Position numbers and translations under genes: made by a program
Assembly (NCBI GenBank): GCA_937951485.1
Contig: CALEDJ010000046.1
Coordinates: 1 to 14,924 of the forward strand
Direction: 5' to 3'
Length of the DNA stretch: 14,924 nt
From: an uncultured bacterium
Lineage (GTDB): Bacteria; Hydrogenedentota; Hydrogenedentia; Hydrogenedentales; CAILVY01
The notes under the pieces: model-generated
Database searches by the model: none
Seen by the model: the letters and a program-made list of their open reading frames with translations, nothing else
Told to the model about the DNA's origin: nothing
Shown here: piece by piece, positions 2 to 14,923 of the stretch
How positions within the stretch are numbered: position 1 is the stretch's first letter
Layout: every line of letters starts with the position of its first letter

Positions 2-2281
2 CCGACATTCCCCTATACTTTTACCTATGTGGTTGATGTCCCGCCCGCTGAAGAAGGTGATGTCATTCTCTCCGGCGAGGGCATCTTCCGCCTGCTGGGT
101 CCCGAATTGCGCACGGGGGTGGTGGAGACCGTCATTTGCGGCGCGGACCTGATTCCCCCGGTCATCACCTTGTTGGGTGATGCGTCGGTCACTGTGGAAT
201 GCGGCGGTGCGTATGTGGACGCCGGCGCCACGGCCTGGGACAGCATTGACGGCGACATCACCGAGGGTATCGAGACAGCAAATCCGGTGGACGCAAGCAC
301 GCCGGGCGTTTACATCGTAACCTACAACGTTACCAATTCATTCGGTATCCCCGCCCAGGAGGTAATCCGCACCGTGACCGTTACCGACACGACGCCCCCT
401 GTCATTTCCCTGAAAGGAAACAGCACTGTAGAGGTGGTCTGTGGACAGACCTATCGCGAATACGGCGCAACGGCGACAGACGTATGCGATGGCAATGTAA
501 TGGTGTCGGTGACGCGATTTGTGGATACCTCGACCCCTGGAACCTACACGCGCCACTACCAGGCGCGGGATGCCGCCGGCAACACGGCCGTCGCAATCCG
601 AACCGTTCACGTGCTTGAGCCTTGTGAGGGCGAAGGCGAAGGCGAGGGGGAAGGGGGAGCGGAAGGCGAAGGCGAGGGCGAAGGCGAAGGCGAGGGCGAA
701 GGCGAAGGCGAAGGCGAAGGCGAAGGCGAGGGCGAAGGCGAAGGCGAAGGCGAAGGCGAGGGCGAGGGCGAAGGCGAAGGGGCGCCGCAAAGTCCGCTGG
801 AGTATTGTCAAAACCTGTGCGCGGGCGCACCGGATGATGTGGACGAAGACGGGGACGGCCTGACGCGGTGCGTCGAGGACTGCCTGCAATACAGCGATCA
901 GACGCCGGATTCCAACGGCGACGGCATTCCGGACAACCTCCGGGCGATTCTCGATGAACTGGGCGAGGAAGGGCGCGCCTGCGCGGATCCCGACCGCGAC
1001 AACCTCACGAATCTCGAAGAATTTCTGCGCAACTCCGATCCGCTGAATCCAAACAGCCCCGCGCGACCGTTCTATCTTGCGCCGCCGCCCGTGGGCGCGG
1101 ATGCGCCGGGCAGAGGGACCATCGAACAGCCGTGGGCAAGCCTTCACTACGTTCTTTCGGCGTTTGCATCGGGCGCGATTGCGCCACCCACCCCGGCGTC
1201 GCCGGTGCGGCTGATTCTGAATCCCGGCGACTATGCGGGCGACATCGCGCTGATGGAATGGATGACCGTGTCTGGGGCGATTGTGCCGTGTCCGGAAGCG
1301 CCGCCCGAACTCGATGTGTTTATCGTGGGGCCTGTCATCGGCGCGGACCACAGCGGCCTGGAGCATCTGGAAATCAGGGGCCGGGAAGAAGACGGGGTGC
1401 TCCTGTACTGCAACGAGGCTGCGATGCGGATTTCGCGGGTGCGTTTCCGGGGCGCGCCACGGCGCGCAAGCACCGCCATGCTGATAGACGGCGACGCCCC
1501 GGCCCGCACGGTCATCGAGCGGTGCATGTTCACCAGTCTTGCGGTGGGGCTCGATATCGGCGGGGCCATCCCCATCGTGCGGCAGTCCATCTTCGGAAAC
1601 ATTGCCGGCGCTGCCATCGTCGTCCGCGCATCCGACGCAGGTCTCAACGCGGGAGATGAAATGGAAACAGGCTGGAACACCTTCCTGAGCACCATAGGCG
1701 ACCCGGTCATCATCAACGAGCGCGATGGGCCGGTCCTCATGCAGCAGTGCGACTGGGATTTGGAAGAACCCACCGATGAAGGGATTGCCGCGCGTGTCGA
1801 GGGGCCGGTGGATTTCAGCGGCTATCTGGCGCAGGGCGGGGCCGTGCTGGCGGCGTCCCTGTTCTGCACCGTGTGGGATGCGCAAAACCAGCAGCGGATA
1901 TTGAACGGCTCCGTGCAGGCGACCCCCGGCGGGTATCCGCCGGTCACTCAAAATATGGACGGCGTTTACGGGTATCCGTCCATCGCACAGGGCAGTTACA
2001 CGGTGTCCGTCAATGCGCCGAATTACCTGCCGCAGACCAGTTTCGTCAACGCAGGCGCCGGGGAACTGGTGTCCATTATCGTGCCCCTCTGGCGCGCCGC
2101 GCCGGAAGGCGAACCCGAAGGCGAAGGCGAAGGCGAGCCGCCTCCGCCCCGCCGTTGCGGCTGCCGCCGCCACAAAGAAGGCGACTGGCCGCCCGATTCT
2201 GGCGATCTGTTCATCACTGGCCTGGCGCTCTTCACGCTGGCGTTGTTGGGCCGCAATCCCGCGGCGCCCGGCAAAAAATAG
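2..2281 (+). CDS. Modular secreted surface protein, 5' partial (DUF11-like end, 2x DUF5011, GE linker, beta-helix, C-terminal anchor)
   Basis: The frame is open to the window edge. The first codons (PTFPYTFTY...) match the end of the repeat domain in the next gene (PPFPVAFTYRL...), so the GTG at 29 is internal and the true start lies upstream. In order: the tail of a DUF11-like domain; two DUF5011/HYR-type Ig-like domains (nt 155-382 and about 393-617, both starting PPVI and carrying an AGATA or YGATA motif); a Gly-Glu linker; an acidic calcium-loop segment (DVDEDGDG, DSNGDG, DPDRDN; nt 830-1020); a parallel beta-helix domain opening GTIEQPWASL as in DUF1565 proteins (nt 1100-1850); a carboxypeptidase-regulatory-like beta domain (nt 1861-2095); a short GE/Pro linker. 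The tail is CGC (nt 2156-2164), a hydrophobic segment and a basic end, resembling MYXO-CTERM-type sorting signals. Probably a cell-surface structural or binding protein; no enzyme motif was seen. Domain calls are by eye. Confidence 0.85.
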   Translation, partial: PTFPYTFTYVVDVPPAEEGDVILSGEGIFRLLGPELRTGVVETVICGADLIPPVITLLGDASVTVECGGAYVDAGATAWDSIDGDITEGIETANPVDASTPGVYIVTYNVTNSFGIPAQEVIRTVTVTDTTPPVISLKGNSTVEVVCGQTYREYGATATDVCDGNVMVSVTRFVDTSTPGTYTRHYQARDAAGNTAVAIRTVHVLEPCEGEGEGEGEGGAEGEGEGEGEGEGEGEGEGEGEGEGEGEGEGEGEGEGEGEGAPQSPLEYCQNLCAGAPDDVDEDGDGLTRCVEDCLQYSDQTPDSNGDGIPDNLRAILDELGEEGRACADPDRDNLTNLEEFLRNSDPLNPNSPARPFYLAPPPVGADAPGRGTIEQPWASLHYVLSAFASGAIAPPTPASPVRLILNPGDYAGDIALMEWMTVSGAIVPCPEAPPELDVFIVGPVIGADHSGLEHLEIRGREEDGVLLYCNEAAMRISRVRFRGAPRRASTAMLIDGDAPARTVIERCMFTSLAVGLDIGGAIPIVRQSIFGNIAGAAIVVRASDAGLNAGDEMETGWNTFLSTIGDPVIINERDGPVLMQQCDWDLEEPTDEGIAARVEGPVDFSGYLAQGGAVLAASLFCTVWDAQNQQRILNGSVQATPGGYPPVTQNMDGVYGYPSIAQGSYTVSVNAPNYLPQTSFVNAGAGELVSIIVPLWRAAPEGEPEGEGEGEPPPPRRCGCRRHKEGDWPPDSGDLFITGLALFTLALLGRNPAAPGKK
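626..781 (+). repeat. GGCGAR hexanucleotide repeat encoding a Gly-Glu linker
   Basis: About 26 tandem hexanucleotides alternate GGC with GAA or GAG and read as (Gly-Glu)n. It is interrupted once by GGA GCG (Gly-Ala). Apart from that interruption the variation seen is synonymous (GAA/GAG, GGC/GGG). It separates the DUF5011 domains from the calcium-loop segment and is probably an extended acidic spacer. Confidence 0.95.
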
Positions 2282-2559: not shown

Positions 2560-2622
2560 ATAATTAAATATTATATTATGGCAATAGAACAAACTCACTT
2601 CATGTTTCGTCTTTCATATGAT
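2560..2622 (+). promoter_or_regulatory. Candidate promoter region for the giant surface-protein gene
   Basis: A 20-nt run of A/T (2560-2579) and a TATGAT hexamer (2617-2622) lie 65-130 nt upstream of the chosen start. No convincing -35 box sits at 16-18 nt from either, so this is only the best candidate in the gap. If TATGAT is the -10 box, transcription would begin near 2629, which rules out the ATG at 2618. Confidence 0.25.
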
Positions 2623-2671
2623 AAAATCCGTTAAGGAAGGCATGACGGACCGGCTGCCGGTGAATTGTCTT

Positions 2672-2683
2672 GGAGCAGAAGAG
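2672..2683 (+). promoter_or_regulatory. Ribosome binding site candidate deciding the start at 2687
   Basis: GGAG (2672-2675) and AGAAGAG (2677-2683) precede the ATG at 2687. The alternative ATG at 2642 has AAGGAAGG almost touching it, and the ATG at 2711 has no spaced purine tract. All are in the same frame; only the n-region of the signal peptide changes. Confidence 0.4.
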
Positions 2684-2686
2684 TAC

Positions 2687-5600
2687 ATGATGTTTGCTTG
2701 TGAACGCAGGATGGAACGGAACAGATGTCTTTCTATTCTGTGTATCCCGATCGTTTTCACTTGCGTATTCCCGGCAGCGGCGCAGACGACCCTGTCCATC
2801 ACCCGGACCGTGGATGGTGACGCTTTGTATACGCCGGGGGGCACGGTGAACCTGACCGTGACCTTTCTCAAAGACGGCCCGGACGGTGTGACGCAGTTGG
2901 GCCTGAAGGAATGGATTCCTGAGGGATGGACCTTTGACGGCGTGGTGGGGGGCGAAGCGCCGGCCATTGTGCCGCCAAACGGCGCCGCCGGCGTGCTCGA
3001 TTTCGCCTATCTGTTCATTCCCATGGTTTTTCCTGTCAGTTTCACTTATCGCCTCAATGTTCCCGGTGACGCCGCGGGTGCGGTGACGATTGAGGGTTAT
3101 GGCATTTACGCCACCGATATCATACAGGAATACACAGAAACGGTTTACACAGACATATTCCCTGTTGGCGGCGAAGGCGAGGGCGAAGGCGAAGGGGAAG
3201 GCGAGGGCGAGGGCGAAGGCGAGGGCGAAGGCGAAGGCGAGGGCGAAGGCGAGGGCGAGGGCGAAGGCGAGGATTCGGTGGTGTATCTGGCGCGGATCGT
3301 TGTGGGTGACGGACTGTATCATCCGGGCGGCACCCTGGACATCGAAGTCACCCTCACATTGGCCGGAACGGACACCGTGACCCAACTCGGCTTGGAGGAA
3401 ATGATCCCGCCGGGCTGGACTTTTGTGCAACTCGTATCGGGCGCGTTGCCGCCGCTGGCGCCTGCGCCGGGCGCTTCAGGGACACTGGGCTTTGGCTGGA
3501 TCACCGTGCCGCCTTTCCCCGTCGCGTTCACTTATCGCCTGGCAGTGCCGCTGGAGGCATCGGGGGGACAGGCGATATCCGGCGAAGGTATTTACGCCTT
3601 TGGCGGCGGCCAACTTCGAACAGAGACCGTGGTAACGCAGATCGGGGAGGGCGACCCTGCTGAAGGAGAGGAGGGGGAAGGCGAAGGCGAGGGCGAGGGC
3701 GAAGGCGAGGGCGAAGGCGAGGGCGAATTGCCGGAAATGACGCTCTTACGCACGGCGGTGGGAGGGGCGTTCTATCGCCCGGGCGAAACGGTGGACCTTC
3801 GAGTAACGATCTCCTATTCGGGCGCGGATGAGGTGACCGCGCTGGGGTTGCGGGAAACGCTGCCGTCGGGATGGACCTATCAGGGCATCGTCCGCGGCGC
3901 GCCGCCAAGCATCATGCCTTCGGTGGGCGAGGGGGGGGAATTGGTGTTTGCGTGGGTCCTGATACCGCCGTTCCCCATCGTATTCACGTATCGCGTGCAG
4001 GCGCCGCCGGACGCCGAGGGGGAACAGGTGGTTTCCGGTGTGGCGGTTTACCGCTCCTATGGACCGCAATTGGAAAGCAATACGCGGGAAACGCGGCTTA
4101 ATCCCCTCACTTCAGCGGACCTGTCGGTCGAAGCGCAGGCGGTCCCCACATCCGAGTGGGGCGGTTATCCCGTTGACGTTTCGTGGGTGGTGCGCAATGT
4201 CGGTGGAGCCACCGCAACGGCGCCGTGGAACGATTGCATCTATGTGTCGGCGGATGATGCCTTCGGCGATGATATTCCTGTGGAATGTGTCGAACGAACG
4301 CTGGATTTGGAGGTGGGCGCGGAATATGCGGTGAGCCGAACAGTCACGCTGCCGGAACTGTCCACAGGGGATTACTGGATCATCGTGGTCGCCAACGATG
4401 GCGAAGATGTTCCCGAAGATTATCGCGAGAACAATGTGGCCGTTGCGGGGCCGATAGCCGTCACGGCGATATCATATGCGGCGACCGTACAGGCATCGGT
4501 GGATGTCTCCCAGGCCGGCGCGCCGGTGGCCCTGATTGGGTCTGCCACACGCCTCGACAATGGTCAGCCCGCGCCCGGCGCGCGCGTGCTGATTGATGTG
4601 CTGTCACGCGGTGTCCGCCGCGTGATCGAAGCGGTCTCCGACGGAGCGGGCAACATTGCCGCCTGGTTTGAACCCTTGCCCACCGAGGCGGGGGCTTACA
4701 CGGTGGGCGCGCGCCATCCAGCCTTTGATGCGCCTGAAACGCAGGACATGTTTACCATTATCGGCCTGTTGATAAATCCGCCGCGCGCAAGCCTGACGCT
4801 TGCGCCGGGCATTCAACAGGAACTCGTATTTGAGGTGCGCAACCTGGGCCATTCGCTGCTGAGCAACCTCCAGGCCGGCGTATCCGGCGCGCCCGGCAAC
4901 ATTTCCGTGGAAGGGGTTGTCGGGCAGGCCGTGCCTGCGCATGGCGTCACCCGCCTCTCCGTGCGGGCGCTGGCGTCAGACGCCACCGTGCCCGCCGCGT
5001 CGGTTCGCGTGACGGTGTCCAGCGCGGAAGGGGCGGCGCATGCCGTTGATCTCGATATTGCCGTGCGGCCTGCGGGCTATCTGATCCAGACCGAAACGAG
5101 CGTCCTGCGGGCGGGTGCGGTGCGCGGCGCACAGGCGCTCTACACCTTTCAGGCGACCAATGCGGGCGGCGCGGTCGCGCCGGATTTCCGCGTGTCGCTG
5201 GCGGCGCTGCCCGAAGCCGCAGCCGCGTGGGTGTCGCTGGTCGCCCCGGTTGATCCCGTGGACCTTGGCCCCGGCGAATCCATTCCCGTGACCCTGCAAC
5301 TGACCCCGCCGCCGGATGCCCCGGTGGAATTGATACAGACCTTCATCCGGTTGCGGACAGGTGCAACCGGCAACCTCTCCGTGCCGTTCCACCTGAACGT
5401 GGTGGACCAGGAACGCGGCGGGCTGCAATTGACGCTGTGGGATGACCTGACATACACCACAGCGGGGCAGCCAAAGGTGGTCGGGGCGACAGTGAAGGTT
5501 CGCGATCCCAATACCGGCGAAATCATCGGGCAAGTTGTCAGCAATTCCCTGGGCCGCGCCGATTTCGCGGACCTGCCCGCCGGCCTCTACAACATCGAAG

Positions 5601-8600
5601 TCATTTCGCCCAATCATGCCTTCTTTTCCGATACGATGCGCGTGCGCGCGGGGCGCACTGTCGCGCGACAACTGAGATTGCGCCGCCTTTTTGTGTGGCA
5701 GCGGTGGACTTATACCCCGCAGCACGAGCAGGCGCCATATCGCGTGGCGGTGACTGTTGCCGCCAATGCGGGCACGCAGGCGGCGGCGATCAGTGTGGAG
5801 CCGCCCGTGCTGGACCTCGGCCTTTTGCAGGGGCCTTCAGTGCAACTCGAATTGATCATTACCAATCACGGCGGCCTGCCCGCGCGAAGCGCCCGCCTGT
5901 ATTTCGGCGGGCATTCCCGCTACGTTTTTACATCGCTGGTTGACGACCTGGGCGCCATCGCGCCCGGCGCTTCGCTCGCGGTGCCGGTGCTGGTGGAAGA
6001 CACGGCCTACGGCAAGCGCGACAAGCAGGACGGCGATTGCGACGTGGGTTTCCCCTCCGGCGTGATCTATTCCTGGGAAGTGGACGGCCGCCTGGAATGG
6101 CGGCGCGAACCCATCGCCATCCTGCTTCCGCCGGAGCATTGTCCGGGAGCGCCGCCCGCCTATGGCGTCATGCCGGCTGACGGCGAAGTGACCGCCTACG
6201 CCGCCGCGCCATCATTTGAACTGGGGCTGTTCTGTGATGCCAAAGACGCGCAGGGAACCCCGAAAGCCGTCGAACCCTGCCTCTTGGCGTCGGCGAAGGC
6301 CTCTCGAAAGACGATCCTGGCGCAAAGCCCGTTTGCCGCCGAACTTGTCCTGTCCCTCGCAAGCCACGGCTTCGCCCTTGATGATGTCGCAATCCTGTTG
6401 CGCATTCTGGACGTCACGGGCGCGGATGCAGCGCATCTCTTCGATATCGGCGCGCCGACCTTCGCCGGGATCAGCGGCATTGACGGGACCGCGACGCTGA
6501 ACCCCGGCGGCGAGGTGCGCGTGCAATGGCCGGTGACGCCGCGCGCGGAATCTGCACATGGTGTTCTGGGCTTTTATCTGATCAGCGGCGAAATCCATTT
6601 CCGGAGCGGCGGCGCACCCGGTGTCTTGGGGGTTCTTCCAGATGTGGTGACAATTTATCCGCCGGTCGCATTGGAGGCGGTATTGCTGCATCCGTTTGCC
6701 GTGTACAGCGACGATCCGCTGACGGAGGCGATTGAAGACGCCGAGCCGTATCAGGCGGGAATGCTGGTGCGCAATGCGGGCGTCACGCCCGCTTACGATG
6801 TCTCGGTTATCGCTTTGGAGCCGGTGATCGCCGCCCGGGACGACACATCCTTCGGCAGTTTCCGGGTGTTCCAGACCTTGGTCGGAGCCGATCCCGTGTT
6901 CCCGGCGCTGCGGCTGGACCTTGGCGATATTGCGCCGGGCGCCAGAGGCGGCGTGGTGTGGGACCTTGCCTCGATGCACGCCGGCACGCTCGCCGAATTG
7001 ACGCTGCAAACATCCTGCCGCGACATGGAAATCCAGCGCCAGGTCTTGTTTCCCTCGTTGATGGAAGTGGTGGACTTGGTTCGCACGGTCCGGGCGCGCG
7101 ACGCGGCCCCGGACGGACTGCCCGACTTTCTGGTCAACAGTGATCCTGACCCCAACCAATTTCCCGATGCCATCTACTTTGGCGACGGTTCGCAGGTCCC
7201 CGTTGCGGCGGCGACCAATGTGTTCCTGGTGGAAGAGGGAAAACAGACACATGTCCGCTTTACGCTGACCGCTGACGTCGGTCCGGGATGGTCCTACCTG
7301 CGGGTCCCCAATCCCCTCGAATCCGAGTATGTGCTTGGGTCCGTGCACCGCAGTGACGGGATTCATCCCCGGACGGAAAACGTCTGGACGACGCGCCGGA
7401 CCGTCCGCAACAGCGCAGGCCAACCCGAATCGGAAAGCCTGCTGCATGTGCTCGATTTCGACAGCACGGGATCATACACGGTCACATTCCGGTCCACATT
7501 GGTCGCGAATACGCCGCCCGTGGCAAACGCCGGTCCAGACCAGGTTGCCTTCATGGGGCAGCCGGTATATCTGGATGGGCGCGGCAGTTTCGATGCAGAC
7601 GGCGATCCGATCACCTATGCGTGGTCCTTCAGTTCGCGGCCCGCAGGCAGCACGGCGATTTTGAGCAATCCCGCGTCTCCGACGCCCTCCTTCACGCCGG
7701 ATTTGCGCGGCGTGTATGTGCTGCGGTTGATCGTGAACGACGGCGAAGCGGACAGCGCGCCGGACACCATGACCGTCACCGTGCGGAACCGTCCCCCCAT
7801 CGCCGAGGCGGGATCGGACCAGCAGCGGCATGTGGGGGACACCGCCACGCTGAACGGGTCGGCCAGTTATGACCCCGATGGCGATCCGATCACCTATGCA
7901 TGGGCTTTTGAATCCAGGCCGGCGGGCAGCACGGCGATCCTGAACCGCGCAAACACGGCCAATCCGTATTTCGTGGTGGACCGCGGCGGCGCCTATGTCG
8001 TCCGGCTGGTGGTCAGCGATGGCTTTACCACCAGCGACCCGGACTATGTGACGGTCCACACCGCCAACCGCGCGCCCGTGGCCGACGCCGGACCGGACCG
8101 GACCGGCTATGTGGGAGACACCATTTTTCTCGACGGCAGCGGCAGCGCCGATCCGGACGGAGATCTCATCACTTATGGTTGGTCCTTCGTGAGCCGGCCT
8201 TCGGGCAGCGCCGCCGTCCTCCTGAACCCGACAACACCGGCCCCCCAGTTCACCATTGACCGAAAAGGCAACTATGTTGTGCAGTTGGTGGTCAGCGACG
8301 GCAGCCTGAGCAGCACGCCGGACACCGTGACCATCGTTGTGCCGAATCGGCCGCCCATCGCCAATGCCGGGCCGGATCGGACGGCATACGTCGGCGAGAC
8401 GGTGCAGTTGGACGGGCGCGGCAGCAGCGATCCCGATGGCGATCCGCTGACCTTCGTGTGGACGCTGCTGTCCAAGCCGTCCGGCAGCGTGACGGTGCTC
8501 TCCGGCGCGGGGTCCGCCCGGCCTACGCTTACTCCAGACAAAACCGGCGCCTATACCGTGCAATTGGTCGTCAATGACGGCGCGATCAACAGCGCGCCCG

Positions 8601-11260
8601 ACACCATGACCGTTTCCGTGGCGAACCGGCCGCCGGTCGCCAACGCGGGACCTGACCAAAGCGGACGCACGGGCGACGTGATTACGCTCGACGGGCGCGG
8701 CAGCAGCGACCCCGACGGCGACGCCATCACCTATGCCTGGTCATTCAGCGCGCGGCCTGCCGGAAGCGCGGCGGCCCTGGACAATCCGGCATCGCCAACT
8801 CCGCGTTTCACGCTCGATCGCAAGGGCGAATACCGTCTTACACTGGTTGTCAACGACGGCATCGTGAACAGCCCGCCCGACACGGTGACGGTTCAATGCC
8901 TGAATTCGCCGCCGGTAGCCAACGCAGGACCGGACCGGTCTGCCCAGATCGAAGACATGGTCACGCTGGACGGGTCCGCCAGTTATGACCCCGACGGCGA
9001 CCCTATCACCTATGCCTGGACCATCACGGCGCGGCCTGCGGGCAGCGCGGCGGAACTGATCGGCGCAAGCACCGTATCGCCCAGTTTCGTGGTTGACGCG
9101 CCCGGCAATTACACCGTGCAGTTGGTGGTGAATGACGGCGCGGAAAACAGCGCCCCGGATACCATGCGCGTGCGCACGACGAACAGTCCGCCAGTGGCCG
9201 ACGCCGGCCCCGACCAGTCGGTCACGGTCGGCGATACGGTGACGATTGACGGCGGCAACAGCAGCGACCCGGACGGTGATACGCTGATCTTTGCGTGGTC
9301 CTTCGTTTCCAAACCGGCGGAAAGCGCCGCCACCGTCCAGAACGCCAATCAACAGACGGCCTTTTTCATCCCCGATGCGCCGGGAACGTATGTCGTGCAG
9401 TTGGTGGTCAATGACGGACTGGCGAACAGCGATCCGGATACCGCCACCATCACCGCCGCCGCAGTTGTGGAAAACCGGCCCCCCGTCGCCCACGCCGGGG
9501 CAAACCAAAGCGCCCGCGTGGGACAGCGGGTCACCCTGAACGGCAGCGCCAGTTATGATCCCGACGGCGACGAGATAACGTTCCGCTGGAGTTTCGTCTC
9601 GAAACCCGGCGCGAGCGCCGCAATACTGGCCGACAGTATGTCGGTGAATCCCTCTTTTGAGATTGACGCCCCCGGAACCTATGTGATTCAACTGATTGTG
9701 AATGACGGCGCGCTGGACAGCGCGCCGGCCACGGTGCGCGTAAGCACCGTCAACAGCGCGCCGGTCGCCGATGCCGGGCCGAACCAGTCCGGCCGCGTCG
9801 GGCAGGAAATCACGCTCGACGGTTCCCGCAGTTATGACGTTGACGGCGATACCCTGCGCTACGCATGGCGTTTCACGCAACGGCCAGACGGCAGCACGGC
9901 GACATTGAGCAATCCCGCCGCCGTCCGCCCGCGATTCACCATTGACCAGGCCGGAACATATGTCATCGAACTCATTGTGAACGACGGAAGCCTGGACAGC
10001 GAACCGGCCCATGTGGCCGTAAGCACCGAAAACTCACCACCGGTCGCCAATGCCGGTCCCGACCAGACGCGACGGGTGGGGCAACAGGCCACCTTGGACG
10101 GACGGAACAGTTATGATCCCGACGGCTATCCGATCACCTATTCGTGGCGCTTCGTCTCGCGTCCAGAAGGCAGCGCCGCCGCGCTCAGCGGCGCGAACAC
10201 CGCCACGCCCACATTCATCATTGACGTATTCGGCGAGTATGTCGTGCAGTTGATCGTGAGCGACGGTCTTCTTTTCAGCACCCCCGACACGGTGGTGATC
10301 AGCACCACGAACAGCCGGCCCGTCGCGAACGCGGGGCCGGACCAGTCGGTTGCTGTGGGCGATGTGGTGCGGCTGGACGGCAGCGCCAGTTTTGATCCCG
10401 ACGGCGATGTGTTGCGGTATCAGTGGAGCATCACATCCAAGCCGACAGGCAGCGCGGCGCGTCTCGATGATCCCGCCGCAATCCAGCCCACCTTCGTGGC
10501 GGACAAGGCGGGGCAGTATGTGGCGCAACTGATTGTAAGCGACGGCGTGTTGAACAGCGCCGCGGACAGCGTGGTCATTGATGCAAGCGATCCCCCCGAT
10601 CCATGCCCGAATCCGCCGTCCGCACCCGCAAATGTCAGCGCCACCGACGGCGTCTTTGCCACCCATGTCGTGATCACCTGGACCGGTTCGCCGGGAGCCA
10701 CGGCCTACCGCGTGTGGCGCGCGGATGCCCCCGATTCCGATACGGCGCAGCCCATCAGCGGATGGATTGCCAATACGTTCTTTAATGACGCCGGCGCGCG
10801 CGCCGCCGAGGTCATCCCGCCTACGGGCTGCTTCGCCCGTTGCAACAATGACCCGGAAATCATCCTGCATCACCATTATTATTGGGTCGAGGCGCGCATC
10901 AACGCGGAGTGCATGAGCGATTTGAGCAACCCGGACCGGGGCCATCGTGCGCCTTCCACGGTGAAATCGTTTTTGTTCGACATTCCGCAACGCATCTGGT
11001 TGCTGTTGATCGAAGATGCGCCTCCCGATGAAGGCACAGGTTATTATCATGATGATGGACCGCAGGCCATGGGGTGTCCGGTGGATTCCGGGGAATGCGT
11101 GATTGTGTCCGGTGAAGTCATTGCCGCGAATCCGGACTCCGCGTCGGTGATGGCGTCCATGCCGGCCATGTCTGGCGTGTTTTATGGCGATGCGCTGGCC
11201 GTCGGCCTGATGCTGGGATTCCTGTTTTTTGGCGGAAAGCGTCGCAGGGGGACAGGCTGA
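2687..11260 (+). CDS. Giant modular surface protein: 3 DUF11-like domains, CARDB, 11 PKD-like repeats, FN3, C-terminal anchor
   Basis: About 2857 residues. A signal peptide (residues 1-32, hydrophobic core after an Arg-rich n-region, cleavage likely after PAAA before Gln33) marks it as secreted. Next come three homologous DUF11-like domains (about 34-160, 196-322, 348-472; motifs LYxPGGT, QLGLxE, P-GWTF, FTYR) separated by Gly-Glu linkers. Then a CARDB domain (about 475-595), a macroglobulin-like beta domain, a carboxypeptidase-regulatory-like domain (about 911-1002) and further beta-sandwich-like sequence to 1607. Eleven PKD/K319L-like repeats of 93 residues follow (1608-2634), then an FN3-like domain (about 2635-2758). 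The C-terminus has a hydrophobic segment (2834-2850) followed by KRRR, a plausible anchor or sorting tail. No catalytic motif was seen; an adhesin or cell-envelope structural role is inferred. Starts at 2618, 2642 and 2711 are also possible. The stop codon lies inside an intergenic repeat copy. Confidence 0.9.
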   Translation: MMFACERRMERNRCLSILCIPIVFTCVFPAAAQTTLSITRTVDGDALYTPGGTVNLTVTFLKDGPDGVTQLGLKEWIPEGWTFDGVVGGEAPAIVPPNGAAGVLDFAYLFIPMVFPVSFTYRLNVPGDAAGAVTIEGYGIYATDIIQEYTETVYTDIFPVGGEGEGEGEGEGEGEGEGEGEGEGEGEGEGEGEGEDSVVYLARIVVGDGLYHPGGTLDIEVTLTLAGTDTVTQLGLEEMIPPGWTFVQLVSGALPPLAPAPGASGTLGFGWITVPPFPVAFTYRLAVPLEASGGQAISGEGIYAFGGGQLRTETVVTQIGEGDPAEGEEGEGEGEGEGEGEGEGEGELPEMTLLRTAVGGAFYRPGETVDLRVTISYSGADEVTALGLRETLPSGWTYQGIVRGAPPSIMPSVGEGGELVFAWVLIPPFPIVFTYRVQAPPDAEGEQVVSGVAVYRSYGPQLESNTRETRLNPLTSADLSVEAQAVPTSEWGGYPVDVSWVVRNVGGATATAPWNDCIYVSADDAFGDDIPVECVERTLDLEVGAEYAVSRTVTLPELSTGDYWIIVVANDGEDVPEDYRENNVAVAGPIAVTAISYAATVQASVDVSQAGAPVALIGSATRLDNGQPAPGARVLIDVLSRGVRRVIEAVSDGAGNIAAWFEPLPTEAGAYTVGARHPAFDAPETQDMFTIIGLLINPPRASLTLAPGIQQELVFEVRNLGHSLLSNLQAGVSGAPGNISVEGVVGQAVPAHGVTRLSVRALASDATVPAASVRVTVSSAEGAAHAVDLDIAVRPAGYLIQTETSVLRAGAVRGAQALYTFQATNAGGAVAPDFRVSLAALPEAAAAWVSLVAPVDPVDLGPGESIPVTLQLTPPPDAPVELIQTFIRLRTGATGNLSVPFHLNVVDQERGGLQLTLWDDLTYTTAGQPKVVGATVKVRDPNTGEIIGQVVSNSLGRADFADLPAGLYNIEVISPNHAFFSDTMRVRAGRTVARQLRLRRLFVWQRWTYTPQHEQAPYRVAVTVAANAGTQAAAISVEPPVLDLGLLQGPSVQLELIITNHGGLPARSARLYFGGHSRYVFTSLVDDLGAIAPGASLAVPVLVEDTAYGKRDKQDGDCDVGFPSGVIYSWEVDGRLEWRREPIAILLPPEHCPGAPPAYGVMPADGEVTAYAAAPSFELGLFCDAKDAQGTPKAVEPCLLASAKASRKTILAQSPFAAELVLSLASHGFALDDVAILLRILDVTGADAAHLFDIGAPTFAGISGIDGTATLNPGGEVRVQWPVTPRAESAHGVLGFYLISGEIHFRSGGAPGVLGVLPDVVTIYPPVALEAVLLHPFAVYSDDPLTEAIEDAEPYQAGMLVRNAGVTPAYDVSVIALEPVIAARDDTSFGSFRVFQTLVGADPVFPALRLDLGDIAPGARGGVVWDLASMHAGTLAELTLQTSCRDMEIQRQVLFPSLMEVVDLVRTVRARDAAPDGLPDFLVNSDPDPNQFPDAIYFGDGSQVPVAAATNVFLVEEGKQTHVRFTLTADVGPGWSYLRVPNPLESEYVLGSVHRSDGIHPRTENVWTTRRTVRNSAGQPESESLLHVLDFDSTGSYTVTFRSTLVANTPPVANAGPDQVAFMGQPVYLDGRGSFDADGDPITYAWSFSSRPAGSTAILSNPASPTPSFTPDLRGVYVLRLIVNDGEADSAPDTMTVTVRNRPPIAEAGSDQQRHVGDTATLNGSASYDPDGDPITYAWAFESRPAGSTAILNRANTANPYFVVDRGGAYVVRLVVSDGFTTSDPDYVTVHTANRAPVADAGPDRTGYVGDTIFLDGSGSADPDGDLITYGWSFVSRPSGSAAVLLNPTTPAPQFTIDRKGNYVVQLVVSDGSLSSTPDTVTIVVPNRPPIANAGPDRTAYVGETVQLDGRGSSDPDGDPLTFVWTLLSKPSGSVTVLSGAGSARPTLTPDKTGAYTVQLVVNDGAINSAPDTMTVSVANRPPVANAGPDQSGRTGDVITLDGRGSSDPDGDAITYAWSFSARPAGSAAALDNPASPTPRFTLDRKGEYRLTLVVNDGIVNSPPDTVTVQCLNSPPVANAGPDRSAQIEDMVTLDGSASYDPDGDPITYAWTITARPAGSAAELIGASTVSPSFVVDAPGNYTVQLVVNDGAENSAPDTMRVRTTNSPPVADAGPDQSVTVGDTVTIDGGNSSDPDGDTLIFAWSFVSKPAESAATVQNANQQTAFFIPDAPGTYVVQLVVNDGLANSDPDTATITAAAVVENRPPVAHAGANQSARVGQRVTLNGSASYDPDGDEITFRWSFVSKPGASAAILADSMSVNPSFEIDAPGTYVIQLIVNDGALDSAPATVRVSTVNSAPVADAGPNQSGRVGQEITLDGSRSYDVDGDTLRYAWRFTQRPDGSTATLSNPAAVRPRFTIDQAGTYVIELIVNDGSLDSEPAHVAVSTENSPPVANAGPDQTRRVGQQATLDGRNSYDPDGYPITYSWRFVSRPEGSAAALSGANTATPTFIIDVFGEYVVQLIVSDGLLFSTPDTVVISTTNSRPVANAGPDQSVAVGDVVRLDGSASFDPDGDVLRYQWSITSKPTGSAARLDDPAAIQPTFVADKAGQYVAQLIVSDGVLNSAADSVVIDASDPPDPCPNPPSAPANVSATDGVFATHVVITWTGSPGATAYRVWRADAPDSDTAQPISGWIANTFFNDAGARAAEVIPPTGCFARCNNDPEIILHHHYYWVEARINAECMSDLSNPDRGHRAPSTVKSFLFDIPQRIWLLLIEDAPPDEGTGYYHDDGPQAMGCPVDSGECVIVSGEVIAANPDSASVMASMPAMSGVFYGDALAVGLMLGFLFFGGKRRRGTG
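3170..3271 (+). repeat. GGCGAR hexanucleotide repeat, Gly-Glu linker 1
   Basis: Seventeen Gly-Glu pairs in tandem join the first and second DUF11-like domains. Variation is at the third base of the Glu codon plus an occasional GGG; the peptide pattern is unbroken. Confidence 0.95.
3662..3727 (+). repeat. GGCGAR hexanucleotide repeat, Gly-Glu linker 2
   Basis: A shorter linker that starts irregularly (EGEEGEGE) and continues as Gly-Glu pairs. It joins the second and third DUF11-like domains. The same design recurs in the flanking surface-protein genes. Confidence 0.93.
7508..10588 (+). repeat. Array of 11 PKD-like repeats, 279-nt period
   Basis: Units start at the Asn codon of N-x-P-V-A-x-A-G: 7508, 7787, 8066, 8345, 8624, 8903, 9182, 9473, 9752, 10031 and 10310. 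Every unit is 279 nt except unit 7, which carries 12 extra nt (four residues before unit 8). Each has a DGx(G/A)S-x-DPDGD-x(2,3)-YxW core and an (L/I)xV(N/S)DG strand, typical of K319L/PKD-like beta-sandwich domains. Units are diverged at the nucleotide level, so this is a protein repeat rather than a recent DNA expansion. Units 2 and 6 share an especially similar stretch around the SYDPDGDPITYAW motif. Confidence 0.93.
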
Positions 11261-11336
11261 AGCCCGTACTCCATAACTGGACAGGTTGAAGCCTGTACTC
11301 CAGAACCGGCCAGGCCGAAGCCTGTACTCCAGAAGT
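11250..11336 (+). repeat. Three tandem 29-nt palindromic repeats (forward orientation)
   Basis: Units at 11250-11278, 11279-11307 and 11308-11336 share the core ACAGGCTGAAGCCTGT followed by ACTCCAGAAC, with a few substitutions each. The core folds as a 6-bp stem with a TGAA tetraloop. The first unit contains the TGA stop of the giant gene. The same element occurs in reverse orientation at 12275-12368, on the other side of the aldolase gene. It resembles REP-type dispersed elements; that identity is an inference. Confidence 0.9.
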
Positions 11337-11370: not shown

Positions 11371-12294
11371 ATGAACCCGCTTACGGATCTTTGCGGCATC
11401 ATTACGGTTTTGAACACCCCATTCACCGAAGACGACGCTATTGATATCCAGGGATTTCAAAAGAACGTGCAACACGCCCTGGACGCAGGGGTCGCGGGAT
11501 TTCTTGTGCCTGCGATGGCGTCGGAGGTGGATAAATTGTCGCCACAGGAACGCGAGCAACTGGTCAAGGCGGTCCTGGGAATCACGCGCGGCAGAAAGCC
11601 GGTCATCGGCGGCGCGTCCGCGCCCACCACGGAAGCGCGCGTGACCGCGACACGTCGCCTGTTGGACCTGGGTTGCGACGGCATCCTGGCGGCCATCCCT
11701 TATCACGACGACCCGCAGTACGAGCGCGACCTGCGCGCACTCGCGGATTTACAGCCGCCTTTTCTGATGATTCAAGACTGGGACGCCACGGGCTACGGCG
11801 TTCCCGTCCCGCTGATTGCACGGCTCTTCCGGGAAGTGTCCGTCTTTCAAGCCCTGAAAATCGAAGTCGTTCCCGCCGGCGTCAAGTACAGTGCGGTGAT
11901 CGAAGCCACCGGTGGACGCCTCCATGTCTCCGGCGGCTGGGCCGTAATGCAGATGATCGAAGCAATGGACCGCGGCGTGCATGCCTTCATGCCGACCGCC
12001 ATGCACCCCATTTACACACGCATCTTCGCCCTCTACCGCGCCGGCCGCCGCGATGCCGCGCGCGCATTGTTCAACCGCCTGCTTCCGGTGCTCGCCTTCT
12101 CAAACCAGCATCTCGATATTTCCATTCATTTCTTCAAACGACTGCTGCGCCGCCAAGGCCTTTTCAGGACTGCGCGCGTGCGCGAACCCATCCTCCCCTT
12201 TGATGCCGTTCATGAGCGTATCGCGAACGAACTCGCCGACTACGCCATCCAACTCATGCGTGATTTGGATGATGTTTTGGAGTACAGGCTTTAG
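11371..12294 (+). CDS. Dihydrodipicolinate synthase / N-acetylneuraminate lyase family protein (class I aldolase)
   Basis: 307 residues, the usual length for this TIM-barrel family. It opens GIITVLNTPF, where the family has G-x-x-x-A-x-x-TPF. The Schiff-base lysine is probably Lys163 in FQALKIE, close to the position of Lys161 in E. coli DapA. Other signatures differ: GTTGE is replaced by AMASE (only the Glu, residue 52, kept), TPYYN by IPYHD (residues 109-113), and the LYNVPSRTG tyrosine motif by an IQDWDATGYGVP segment (134-145). This makes true lysine-pathway DapA activity doubtful; a carbon-carbon lyase on a pyruvate-type or other keto-acid substrate is more likely. It stands alone between two repeat arrays, with no partner gene that names a pathway. 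Its last codons (LEYRL, stop) are encoded by a repeat copy. Cytoplasmic; no signal peptide. Confidence 0.88.
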   Translation: MNPLTDLCGIITVLNTPFTEDDAIDIQGFQKNVQHALDAGVAGFLVPAMASEVDKLSPQEREQLVKAVLGITRGRKPVIGGASAPTTEARVTATRRLLDLGCDGILAAIPYHDDPQYERDLRALADLQPPFLMIQDWDATGYGVPVPLIARLFREVSVFQALKIEVVPAGVKYSAVIEATGGRLHVSGGWAVMQMIEAMDRGVHAFMPTAMHPIYTRIFALYRAGRRDAARALFNRLLPVLAFSNQHLDISIHFFKRLLRRQGLFRTARVREPILPFDAVHERIANELADYAIQLMRDLDDVLEYRL

Positions 12295-12368
12295 CCTTGC
12301 CGGTTCTGGAGTACAGGCTTTGGCCTGTTCCGGCGCTGGCCTGTTTTGGAGTACAGCCTTCGCCTGCC
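12275..12368 (-). repeat. Three copies of the palindromic repeat (reverse orientation)
   Basis: Copies contain GGAGTACAGGCTT or GGAGTACAGCCTT starting at 12279, 12308 and 12348, so the spacing is 29 and then 40 nt. They are the reverse complement of the units at 11250-11336. Hairpin cores such as ACAGGCTTTGGCCTGT are retained. The first copy contains the TAG stop of the DapA-like gene. The extra 11 nt before the third copy contain a partial GGCCTG fragment. Confidence 0.88.
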
Positions 12369-12498: not shown

Positions 12499-12852
12499 GT
12501 GAATCTGCAGGATATTGCCAGGGAACTTGATCTGGAAAACCTCACGCCGGAATTGCCGTTGGAGACAGGTCGAAAAATCCAGTGCGCTTATGTTTCCGAT
12601 TTGCTGAGCGATGTATTGGCGAATGCACCGAAAGACAGTGTGTTGGTGACGGTTCAGGTGCATTTGAACGTAGTGGCGGTGGCTGTGCACGCGGAACTGG
12701 CGGCGGTGATCTTCGCCATGGGCCGCCATCCGGACGAGACCGTGCGCGCAAAAGCGGCGGAAGAAGGCATTGTCCTGTTTACCTCGCCGGAACCCGCGTT
12801 CGAACTTGCGGGCCGTCTCTATGCCCTGGGATTGCGGGGCGAGCCGGGGTGA
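12499..12852 (+). CDS. DRTGG-domain protein (hydrogenase-associated regulatory family)
   Basis: 117 residues, matching small stand-alone DRTGG proteins. It opens with a short helix (LQDIARELDLENLTPE), then the domain core with YVSDLLSDVLANA, VTVQVHLNVVAVA and ELAAVIFAMGRHPD, and closes with SPEPAFELAGRLYALGL. The DRTGG domain is related to regions of phosphotransacetylase and HPr-kinase-linked proteins; its ligand is unclear. It is the first gene of a three-gene overlapping operon: its TGA overlaps the GTG of the PHP gene by 4 nt, implying translational coupling. In Clostridia and Thermotogae the same family sits beside HATPase, PHP and [FeFe]-hydrogenase genes, so a role in redox or hydrogenase regulation is inferred from context. 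Starts at 12490 or 12499 cannot be separated with certainty. Confidence 0.85.
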   Translation: MNLQDIARELDLENLTPELPLETGRKIQCAYVSDLLSDVLANAPKDSVLVTVQVHLNVVAVAVHAELAAVIFAMGRHPDETVRAKAAEEGIVLFTSPEPAFELAGRLYALGLRGEPG

Positions 12853-13598
12853 TTGCCGTCGCGGGAGACCTGCACATTCATACGGCGCTGTCGCCGTGCG
12901 CTGAAGATGTCATGACTCCCGGCGCGATTGTGCAGGCCGCCGTAGAGGCGGGGCTGGACCTCATCGCCATTTGCGACCACAACAGCGCCGACAATGCAGC
13001 GGCGGTGCAGGCCGCCGCGCAACACCATGCAGACAACCGGTTGCTTGTGCTGTCCGGCATCGAGATTACCACGTCGGAAGAAGTGCATCTCATCGGCGTT
13101 TTCCCCGAAACCGAGGCCGCCATGCGGGTCGGCGCGCAGGTGCGGAGCACGCTGCCGGCGCTTTCCGGGGCGCCCCGCCTTGATGGGAACCAATGGATCA
13201 TGAACGCTGAAGGCGAAAAAATCGCCAGGGAAACACAGATGCTTTCCATGGCATCCGGTTTTCCGTTGGCCGACGCTGTCGCGATGGTCCGCGATCACGG
13301 CGGCCTGGCCATCGCGGCGCATGTGGACCGTCCCTCCTTCTCCGTCACCAGCCAGTTGGGGTTCTTCCCGGACAATCTGCGCTTTGATGCGCTGGAAATC
13401 TCCGCTGCGGGCAGTCGCGAGGGCCGTCAGGAGCGATTCACGCATTTGGGCATGCCGCTGATCACCGCATCGGACGCGCATTGCCCCGAGGAAATCGGCG
13501 CGTGCCGAACCCTCTTCGCCATGAAGTCGCCGGACTTTGAATCACTGGCGGAAGCGTTGCGGTGTGATCCGCGAGAAGGGCGGTGTGTCATTGCTTGA
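12849..13598 (+). CDS. PHP-domain metallohydrolase
   Basis: 249 residues. Metal-binding motifs of the PHP superfamily are all visible: GDLHIHT (His9, His11), CDHN (Asp43, His44), GIEIT (Glu72), a further EVHLIG (His80), IAAHVDRPS, and SDAH near the C-terminus. Such proteins bind two or three divalent metals and hydrolyse phosphoester bonds; the substrate here is unknown. The GTG start overlaps the preceding TGA (GTGA, 12849-12852). The 3' end overlaps the next gene by about 14 nt. The family member found in [FeFe]-hydrogenase-associated clusters has this length and the same neighbours, which supports a shared regulatory module rather than a DNA-polymerase or histidinol-phosphatase PHP role. 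No signal peptide; cytoplasmic. Confidence 0.9.
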   Translation: MIAVAGDLHIHTALSPCAEDVMTPGAIVQAAVEAGLDLIAICDHNSADNAAAVQAAAQHHADNRLLVLSGIEITTSEEVHLIGVFPETEAAMRVGAQVRSTLPALSGAPRLDGNQWIMNAEGEKIARETQMLSMASGFPLADAVAMVRDHGGLAIAAHVDRPSFSVTSQLGFFPDNLRFDALEISAAGSREGRQERFTHLGMPLITASDAHCPEEIGACRTLFAMKSPDFESLAEALRCDPREGRCVIA

Positions 13599-14133
13599 AT
13601 TGTCGCTGCACATACTTGACCTGCTGGAAAACGCGGTGCGCGCCGGCGCCTCCGTGGTCTGCGTCACCCTGCGCGAAGCCCCTGAAGAAGACCTGCTGGA
13701 AATCAGCGTGGAAGATAACGGTCCCGGCCTGACCACATCGCCGGAGCACACCCTGGACCCGTTCTACACCACCAAGGAAGGCAAGCGCACCGGCCTGGGC
13801 TTGAGCCTTTTCCGCGCCGCCGCCGAGCAGGTGGGCGGACGCTTCACCCTGGAGCGCAGCGCGGAACTCGGCGGCGTTGCCGCGCGCGCCACCATGCAAT
13901 TACGTCATGTGGATCGCGCCCCGCTCGGCGATCTGCCCGGAACCTTCTTCGCTATGATCCTCACCCATCCTGAGGTGGAATTCCGGTGCCGCGTGCAAAG
14001 CCCCGTCAGCAATCTCTTCATTACGACGTCTGAAATCGCAACCGAACTGAATGCGGATACCCCCGCCGATTTCGCAGTGGCGAAATGCTTCTGCGATAAA
14101 TTGGCGGACACTCTGCGTACCCTCTCCGCATAA
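13585..14133 (+). CDS. Small HATPase (ATP-binding, histidine-kinase/anti-sigma-like) protein
   Basis: 182 residues from the GTG at 13585; a TTG at 13591 is better spaced from the GAGAAGGG tract (13573-13580) and is an alternative. It begins almost at once with the N-box (LSLHILDLLENAV), followed by the G1 box (EDNGPGL), DPFYTTK, and the G2 box (TGLGLSLFRAAAEQVGG), a complete GHKL ATP-binding fold. There is no phospho-acceptor His domain, sensor or membrane segment. The C-terminal 60 residues after HVDRAPLGDLPGT are family-specific. It may act as an anti-sigma-type kinase or as a kinase half that needs a partner; this is inferred. It overlaps the PHP gene and ends the operon. Homologues with the ELSLHILD start lie next to Fe-hydrogenase subunit genes in Firmicutes. 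Confidence 0.88.
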   Translation: MSLLELSLHILDLLENAVRAGASVVCVTLREAPEEDLLEISVEDNGPGLTTSPEHTLDPFYTTKEGKRTGLGLSLFRAAAEQVGGRFTLERSAELGGVAARATMQLRHVDRAPLGDLPGTFFAMILTHPEVEFRCRVQSPVSNLFITTSEIATELNADTPADFAVAKCFCDKLADTLRTLSA

Positions 14134-14302: not shown

Positions 14303-14923
14303 TCAAATGGGCACGGGACCGGGACAGTAACCGTCCTCCGTGGGCGGGTCGGTATCCGGGCAGGGGTGGTATCCGCCGGCGTTGTAGAATTGAATAATAC
14401 GCAGGAGTTCGGAGAGCGAAATCAGCCAGTTCTGCGGATTGTAGTCCGATGCGTGTGGCCGGCATTCCTGATGCGCCGGGTTCGGCCCAGGCACGTAACC
14501 GTCTTCGGTGCTTGCGGGCGTCGCCGCGCAATGGTAACCGCCGGCGTTGAAGAACTGGATCACCCGCAGTAATTCGGACAGGGAAATCCGGCCATCTCCG
14601 TCAACATCGGCGGAATGAATTTCTGGTACGCCGATATCCCCCTCGCCCTCGCCTTCGCTCTCGCCTTCTCCTTCGCCCTCGCCTTCGCCCTCTCCTTCAC
14701 CCTCGCCTTCGCCCTCTCCTTCGCCCTCTCCTTCGCCCTCGCCTTCGCCCTCGCCTTCGCCCTCGCCTTGTGCCACAACGCTTACGTCAATGGGGCCATA
14801 GACGGCGGGCTGCGGCGGCGCGCCGTAGAAGGCCACCGGCTTGAGGTAGGCGCAGGTGTAGCGGCCGGTGTCCTCCTCCAGGGCGTGCAGAATATCCAGG
14901 GTGCGGCTGGTCGCGCCCACGAT
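14303..14923 (-). CDS. Secreted protein with Ig-like end, GE linker and dockerin-like C-terminal duplication, 5' partial
   Basis: On the minus strand the frame is open to the window end, so the GTG at 14920 is not a supported start. The first visible residues end an immunoglobulin-like domain with the classic D-x-G-x-Y-x-C motif (LHALEEDTGRYTCAYL). A Gly-Glu linker follows, with one Ser substitution. Then a tandem C-terminal module: copy 1 has an intact calcium-loop motif (DVDGDGRIS) before LSELLRVIQFFNAGGYHC and TEDGY-PGP; copy 2 has SDYNPQNWLIS in place of the acidic loop, then LSELLRIIQFYNAGGYH and TEDGYCPGP. The pattern resembles type I dockerin/EF-hand duplications and recurs in Hydrogenedentes surface proteins (from memory). 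No transmembrane tail, unlike the other two surface proteins here. Convergent to the HATPase operon. Confidence 0.85.
   Translation of the reverse strand: MVGATSRTLDILHALEEDTGRYTCAYLKPVAFYGAPPQPAVYGPIDVSVVAQGEGEGEGEGEGEGEGEGEGEGEGEGEGEGEGEGEGESEGEGEGDIGVPEIHSADVDGDGRISLSELLRVIQFFNAGGYHCAATPASTEDGYVPGPNPAHQECRPHASDYNPQNWLISLSELLRIIQFYNAGGYHPCPDTDPPTEDGYCPGPVPI
14639..14767 (-). repeat. GGCGAR hexanucleotide repeat encoding a Gly-Glu linker (minus strand)
   Basis: About 21 Gly-Glu pairs lie between the Ig-like and dockerin-like parts, with one Glu replaced by Ser. On the plus strand it appears as a CT-rich CTCGCC/TTCGCC tract. It is the same linker type as in the plus-strand genes, 11 kb away. 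Confidence 0.93.

Follow-up and report, generated by a model that had tools for sequence, protein, structure and literature searches.

A conserved DRTGG, PHP and GHKL ATPase module, split in a Hydrogenedentota genome, and its probable link to NuoE/NuoF/HydD oxidoreductases

The window analysed here is an entire contig of 14,924 bp (contig C46) from a Hydrogenedentota genome, and three consecutive, overlapping open reading frames on its plus strand form the trio under study. The first (12499..12852, GTG start at 12499, 117 aa) encodes a DRTGG-fold protein, here named DRTGG2; the second (12849..13598, GTG start at 12849, 249 aa) a PHP-domain metal-dependent phosphoesterase; and the third (13585..14133, GTG start at 13585, 182 aa) a GHKL/HATPase_c protein without a HisKA (phospho-acceptor) domain. 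The first two genes overlap by 4 nt (GTGA) and the last two by 14 nt if the GTG at 13585 is taken as the ATPase start; an alternative TTG at 13591 would give an 8-nt overlap, as in most relatives. The ORF calls agree with the original prediction on the three genes, their positions and both overlaps. The arrangement is more than chance, since PHP orthologues in relatives nearly always keep the same neighbours with similar overlaps. No second copy of the whole trio was found in the genome, only one further DRTGG-like gene on contig C29 and distant PHP paralogues.

It had also been claimed that no hydrogenase lies downstream. The operon does end at 14133 and is followed by a convergent ORF (14303..14920, minus strand), which runs to the contig end, carries two dockerin-like repeats and marks the 3' boundary, but as the whole window is a single contig, just 791 bp 3' of the operon are known. 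Scans for a promoter and a terminator around the trio gave nothing above chance, and no Rex-like operator was found in the window with a consensus derived from Thermoanaerobacterium. The window further encodes three proteins of surface type, with long linkers of Gly-Glu repeats, at 29-2281 (+), 2618-11260 (+) and 14303-14920 (-); the 2880-aa member resembles tandem PKD-type repeats.

Two of the three family assignments made originally pass the Pfam gathering thresholds. The PHP protein scores 29.4 bits against PF02811 (cut-off 26.4) and 39.0 bits against PHP_C (cut-off 21.3), and its orthologues occur in 19 relatives at 38-56% identity. Eight residues are invariant among 39 homologues (H9, H11, H44, E72, H80, H158, D209 and H211) and, judging from the family, are likely to be the ligands of the metal centre. 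The canonical Asp of the HxHTxxSDG motif is missing, the sequence being HxHTxLSPC (SPC in place of SDG) with C17 invariant; the top structural relative, EndoQ, also lacks this Asp.

The ATPase scores 54.9 bits against PF02518 (HATPase_c, cut-off 26.4) and retains the N and G boxes, with N16, D44-x-G46-x-G48 and G70-x-G72 invariant, as are D110, P113 and G115. C-terminally it carries an alpha/beta extension that begins with the motif HxDRxPxGD. The ATPase domain and this extension fill the 182 residues, and no HisKA/DHp domain with a phospho-acceptor His was matched by Pfam, so the protein is not a classical sensor histidine kinase. Over most of its length it aligns with GyrB/ParE/MutL-type GHKL ATPases at low TM.

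The third assignment, DRTGG, fell short in Pfam (PF07085, 16.6 bits against a cut-off of 25.2) and was therefore tested by profile and by fold. A profile built from 60 DRTGG2 homologues matched the DRTGG/HPrK chains 1ko7, 2ioj and 3l2b, that is, HPr kinase, AF1212 and a pyrophosphatase DRTGG region. The predicted structure (pLDDT 96.8) found AF1212 (2ioj, Pfam DRTGG) as its best PDB match (TM 0.82, E 5e-7), and a DRTGG fold is thus supported at the level of the model despite the sub-threshold score. D34, L35, S37 and N57 are invariant in the 60 homologues. A phmmer search with a single DRTGG sequence returned one match only, to Pumilio, which was rejected as spurious.

The trio is not free-standing and makes up the 3' half of a five-gene module with the conserved order DRTGG1, FUS, DRTGG2, PHP and GHKL ATPase. 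The full or near-full order is visible in 16 of 19 same-phylum relatives, which encode all of DRTGG1, FUS, PHP and the ATPase (with a fragmented FUS in G009), DRTGG1-FUS lying directly 5' of the trio. DRTGG2 of G008 is not a separate match because the FUS frame runs on. Among the other three relatives, G006 and G043 have no FUS, while G058 gave no DRTGG2 match and its contig stops after PHP. In the genome studied here, DRTGG1, which shares the invariant S37 with DRTGG2, is located on contig C29 and overlaps the FUS gene by 4 nt.

FUS is a protein of 515 residues that combines a SpoIIAB-like ATPase (SpoIIAB being the nearest named family of its N-terminal part), ferredoxin-like clusters, a partial [FeFe]-hydrogenase domain and an FeS domain. 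Four cysteines of the hydrogenase-like part (C281, C324, C406 and C410) are invariant, and the domain falls short of a complete H-domain, with 40 bits against PF02906 over model positions 10-105 of 245. In some phyla, as judged from a single short FUS match, the hydrogenase-like domain is absent, and H2 sensing cannot therefore be the constant task of the module.

Among the relatives read, the module order is broken only in the present genome. The split is not an artefact of contig ends, with about 1.8 kb following FUS on C29 and 12.5 kb preceding DRTGG2 on C46; there is a slight chance that wrong binning of one of the two contigs lies behind it. The place held by DRTGG1-FUS in relatives is taken in the window by a gene for a DHDPS-family aldolase (11371..12294, plus strand), which lies outside the module. 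A palindromic interspersed repeat, TGGAGTACAGGCTTCAGCCTG, occurs in runs spaced by 29 nt at 11253-11331 (-) and 12278-12327 (+), flanking the aldolase gene in inverted orientation at the site where relatives carry the first half of the module; 86 copies were counted in the genome at no more than one mismatch, against zero for the reversed control.

The original prediction proposed that such genes accompany [FeFe]-hydrogenases, and genes for these are present in the genome. Six genes match PF02906 strongly, three of which, on contigs C51, C68 and C34, encode NADH-dependent group A6 HydA. The C51 locus reads rex, nuoE, hydD, nuoF fused to a GltD-like part, and hydA. Its HydA scores 901 bits against NF040763 (cut-off 765) and contains the H-cluster motifs TSCSPGW, MPCTAKKFE and CPGGCIGGGGQP. 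NuoE, NuoF and a group A6 HydA with H-cluster motifs are the genes by which bifurcating HydABC enzymes are recognized, and the C51 enzyme is, on its sequence, probably an electron-bifurcating hydrogenase. A fourth of the six strong matches, on contig C39 (L022:5807-7894), is a 695-aa protein in which an [FeFe]-hydrogenase domain, FeS, HisKA and HATPase are fused, in effect a sensory hydrogenase and a histidine kinase in one chain.

The distribution of the module was profiled over 68 genomes of the phylum, in which PHP scores fell into two separate groups (>150 and <35 bits), giving a PHP orthologue in 20 genomes. Hydrogenase genes in general are associated with PHP, any PF02906 match occurring in 20/20 carriers against 22/48 non-carriers (Fisher p = 7e-6; this and the following genome-level p-values ignore shared ancestry, which overstates their significance). 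PHP tracks HydD and the C51-type HydA far more closely. A stand-alone HydD orthologue was found in 19/20 PHP carriers and 0/48 others (Fisher p = 6e-16), the single exception being G019, where the hydrogenase contig ends within NuoF. FUS was found in 18 genomes (Fisher p = 1e-14) and a C51-type HydA of at least 78% identity in 17 (Fisher p = 3e-13), in both cases all among the 20 carriers. A genus-level test (10/10 against 0/34, p = 4e-10) reduces the effect of shared ancestry without removing it, and the distribution across five families is patchy. The module is absent from five genomes in which HydA is 70-74% identical and a close stand-alone HydD is missing.

Gene neighbourhoods point the same way. 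The quintet runs directly into nuoE-hydD in G050 and G056, as does the trio in G043, and in G008 and G058 the module and hydrogenase genes share a contig. The original prediction had left it undecided whether the trio works in trans on a hydrogenase elsewhere or forms an independent signalling module. The co-distribution with HydD and C51-type HydA, together with the three relatives in which the module runs into nuoE-hydD, favours the former, and the trio is best read as acting in trans on the C51 enzyme. An independent module that has lost its original role with the split, and has no hydrogenase client, would fit the location of the nearest HydABC genes on other contigs and a broken order unique among the relatives read. 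Against this, HydD, C51-type HydA, FUS and PHP are all kept in the genome, and two same-family genomes without PHP and FUS also lack both a close stand-alone HydD and a C51-type HydA, so that independence seems very improbable.

Beyond the phylum, a scan of named genomes gave 80 loci in many phyla. With profiles made from the Hydrogenedentota proteins, DRTGG was matched in 77 of these, FUS or its ATPase part in 71 and the GHKL ATPase in 67; HydD and NuoE were each matched in 62 and NuoF in 61, with at least one of the three close by in 68. A HydA gene above 400 bits was found in only 20 loci. In about 30 others just the N-terminal ferredoxin part of HydA was matched, and most of the partial matches scanned are FdhA/NuoG-like molybdopterin proteins or HdrA2; six to eight loci also carry genes resembling [NiFe]-hydrogenase subunits by sequence. 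When 30 module-bearing genomes, chosen for their lack of a full HydA beside the module, were searched, 16 proved free of PF02906 matches; two of these, L148 (CP070638.1) and L174 (CP070787.1), are single-chromosome records. This is in line with the report that hydrogenases make up only about half of HydABC-type clusters (PMC9304861). The proposed association with [FeFe]-hydrogenase is borne out within Hydrogenedentota, and the hydrogenase label is too narrow elsewhere: with FdhA/NuoG-like or HdrA2 partners and PF02906-free genomes, the steady companion of the module is the NuoE/NuoF/HydD core. Of the 50 loci with over 4.5 kb of flank on either side, nine had no detected C51-type HydD, NuoE or NuoF.

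Two further observations were made among these loci. Near the module and NuoEF of L148 (15696-17825, Neomarinimicrobiota), a [2Fe-2S] NuoG-like N-terminus is apparently fused to imidazolonepropionase (HutI), which could be a frame read-through or a new NuoEF partner. Five loci (L131, L135, L144, L155 and L179) carry the module with no GHKL ATPase match and no HydD, NuoE or NuoF in their flanks; the four of these genomes that were searched encode several strong [FeFe]-hydrogenase matches at other sites, making action in trans possible there.

From the gene content and order, the split, the fold and family assignments and the co-distribution computed here, we infer that the module, divided in this genome between C46 and C29, serves NuoE/NuoF/HydD oxidoreductases that are probably bifurcating, and that its likeliest client here is the C51 hydrogenase, acted on in trans; a probability of roughly 0.6 is given to this reading. 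As three group A6 HydA genes are present, the client could instead be the C68 or C34 enzyme. In the likeliest mechanism, FUS would read the redox or H2 state through its Fe-S and H-domain-like part, and its SpoIIAB-like ATPase would work as a protein kinase, with phosphorylation of a Ser or Thr on a partner such as a DRTGG protein (with its invariant S37), HydD or NuoF. The GHKL protein of the trio could play a similar role or be an ATP-dependent assembly factor, and the PHP enzyme would take the phosphate off the partner. The state of such a switch would then govern how the enzyme's diaphorase part is assembled or how active it is.

Several of these features would also suit an assembly or maturation system, in which GHKL chaperones load FMN or Fe-S clusters or dock HydD, NuoE and NuoF with help from DRTGG and PHP. 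HydE of Acetobacterium woodii, of the same family and operon position as the trio ATPase, was absent from the purified enzyme, and 'assembly or signalling' was considered possible for it (PMC3315566). The trio ATPase has no HisKA and aligns at low TM with GyrB/ParE/MutL-type ATPases, and the module follows the NuoE/NuoF/HydD core regardless of the third subunit. On the other hand, the N-terminal part of FUS is nearest to SpoIIAB, a serine-kinase anti-sigma factor; group D sensory hydrogenases in a FUS-like position have been proposed as sensors (PMC3561251, PMC8163306); and HydA enzymes at 70-74% identity occur in module-free genomes, indicating that such enzymes can be assembled without the module. 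An assembly role is therefore held to be rather unlikely, if still a serious alternative to control by phosphorylation.

Transcriptional partner switching, with an anti-sigma-like ATPase, an antagonist and a phosphatase and with the hydrogenase genes in the regulon, would account for the SpoIIAB-like ATPase, the small soluble partners and the many loci in which the module precedes enzyme operons. The module neighbourhoods, however, contain no recurrent gene for a sigma factor, STAS protein, PP2C or DNA-binding protein, and a gene for the Rex repressor already precedes the C51 operon. This explanation is considered improbable, and with no DNA-binding partner seen, post-translational control of the NuoE/NuoF/HydD enzymes is preferred. 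It is suggested more tentatively, at somewhat short of even odds, that DRTGG, PHP, SpoIIAB-like and GHKL proteins constitute an undescribed phospho-relay acting post-translationally on NuoE/NuoF/HydD enzymes in many phyla, with interchangeable sensors and enzyme types.

In the open literature, subscription journals being largely outside its scope, no paper was found that deals with DRTGG, PHP and both ATPases as a single system; the parts are already known from A. woodii HydE and the group D sensory hydrogenases. A. woodii HydE is a HATPase-only protein encoded among NuoE, HydD, NuoF and HydA genes (PMC3315566), and the Firmicutes order PHP-NuoE-ATPase-HydD-NuoF-HydA puts the ATPase family of the trio in the place of HydE. 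The likeness is one of family and operon position, and the trio ATPase differs in lying in a DRTGG/PHP operon unlinked to hydrogenase genes. SpoIIAB/SpoIIAA pairs likewise use GHKL ATPase domains without a DHp domain, but the module has a PHP enzyme and DRTGG proteins in place of a STAS antagonist, PP2C and sigma factor. The BfuABC family shares the NuoE/NuoF core, and the module spans its HydA, FdhA/NuoG-like and HdrA2 partners; in the accessible part of that work (PMC9304861) the enzymes are classified, while hisK and hydD are drawn and named and not analysed as a system. The sharp co-distribution found here indicates that the module goes with HydD and the NuoE/NuoF core and not with H2 chemistry alone; how electron bifurcation is controlled bears on fermentation yields, syntrophy and acetogenesis.

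A further close parallel is offered by the group D (M2e) loci, such as those of TamHydS in Thermoanaerobacter mathranii and TTE0887, where a hydrogenase-like sensor gene lies upstream of bifurcating HydABC with a histidine-kinase-like ATPase gene nearby (PMC3561251, PMC3608648, PMC8163306); no DRTGG/PHP part is described in the accessible parts of these papers. In Hydrogenedentota, by contrast, the sensor-like domain, degenerate as measured by Pfam (40 bits over a third of the model), forms one protein with a SpoIIAB-like ATPase, and FUS is unlinked to the hydrogenase operon in the present genome. In the characterization of TamHydS (PMC8163306) the question was raised of how the signal is transmitted by a group D sensory hydrogenase that lacks a PAS domain; the module would supply the missing gene set for that question, and for the 'assembly or signalling' role of HydE.
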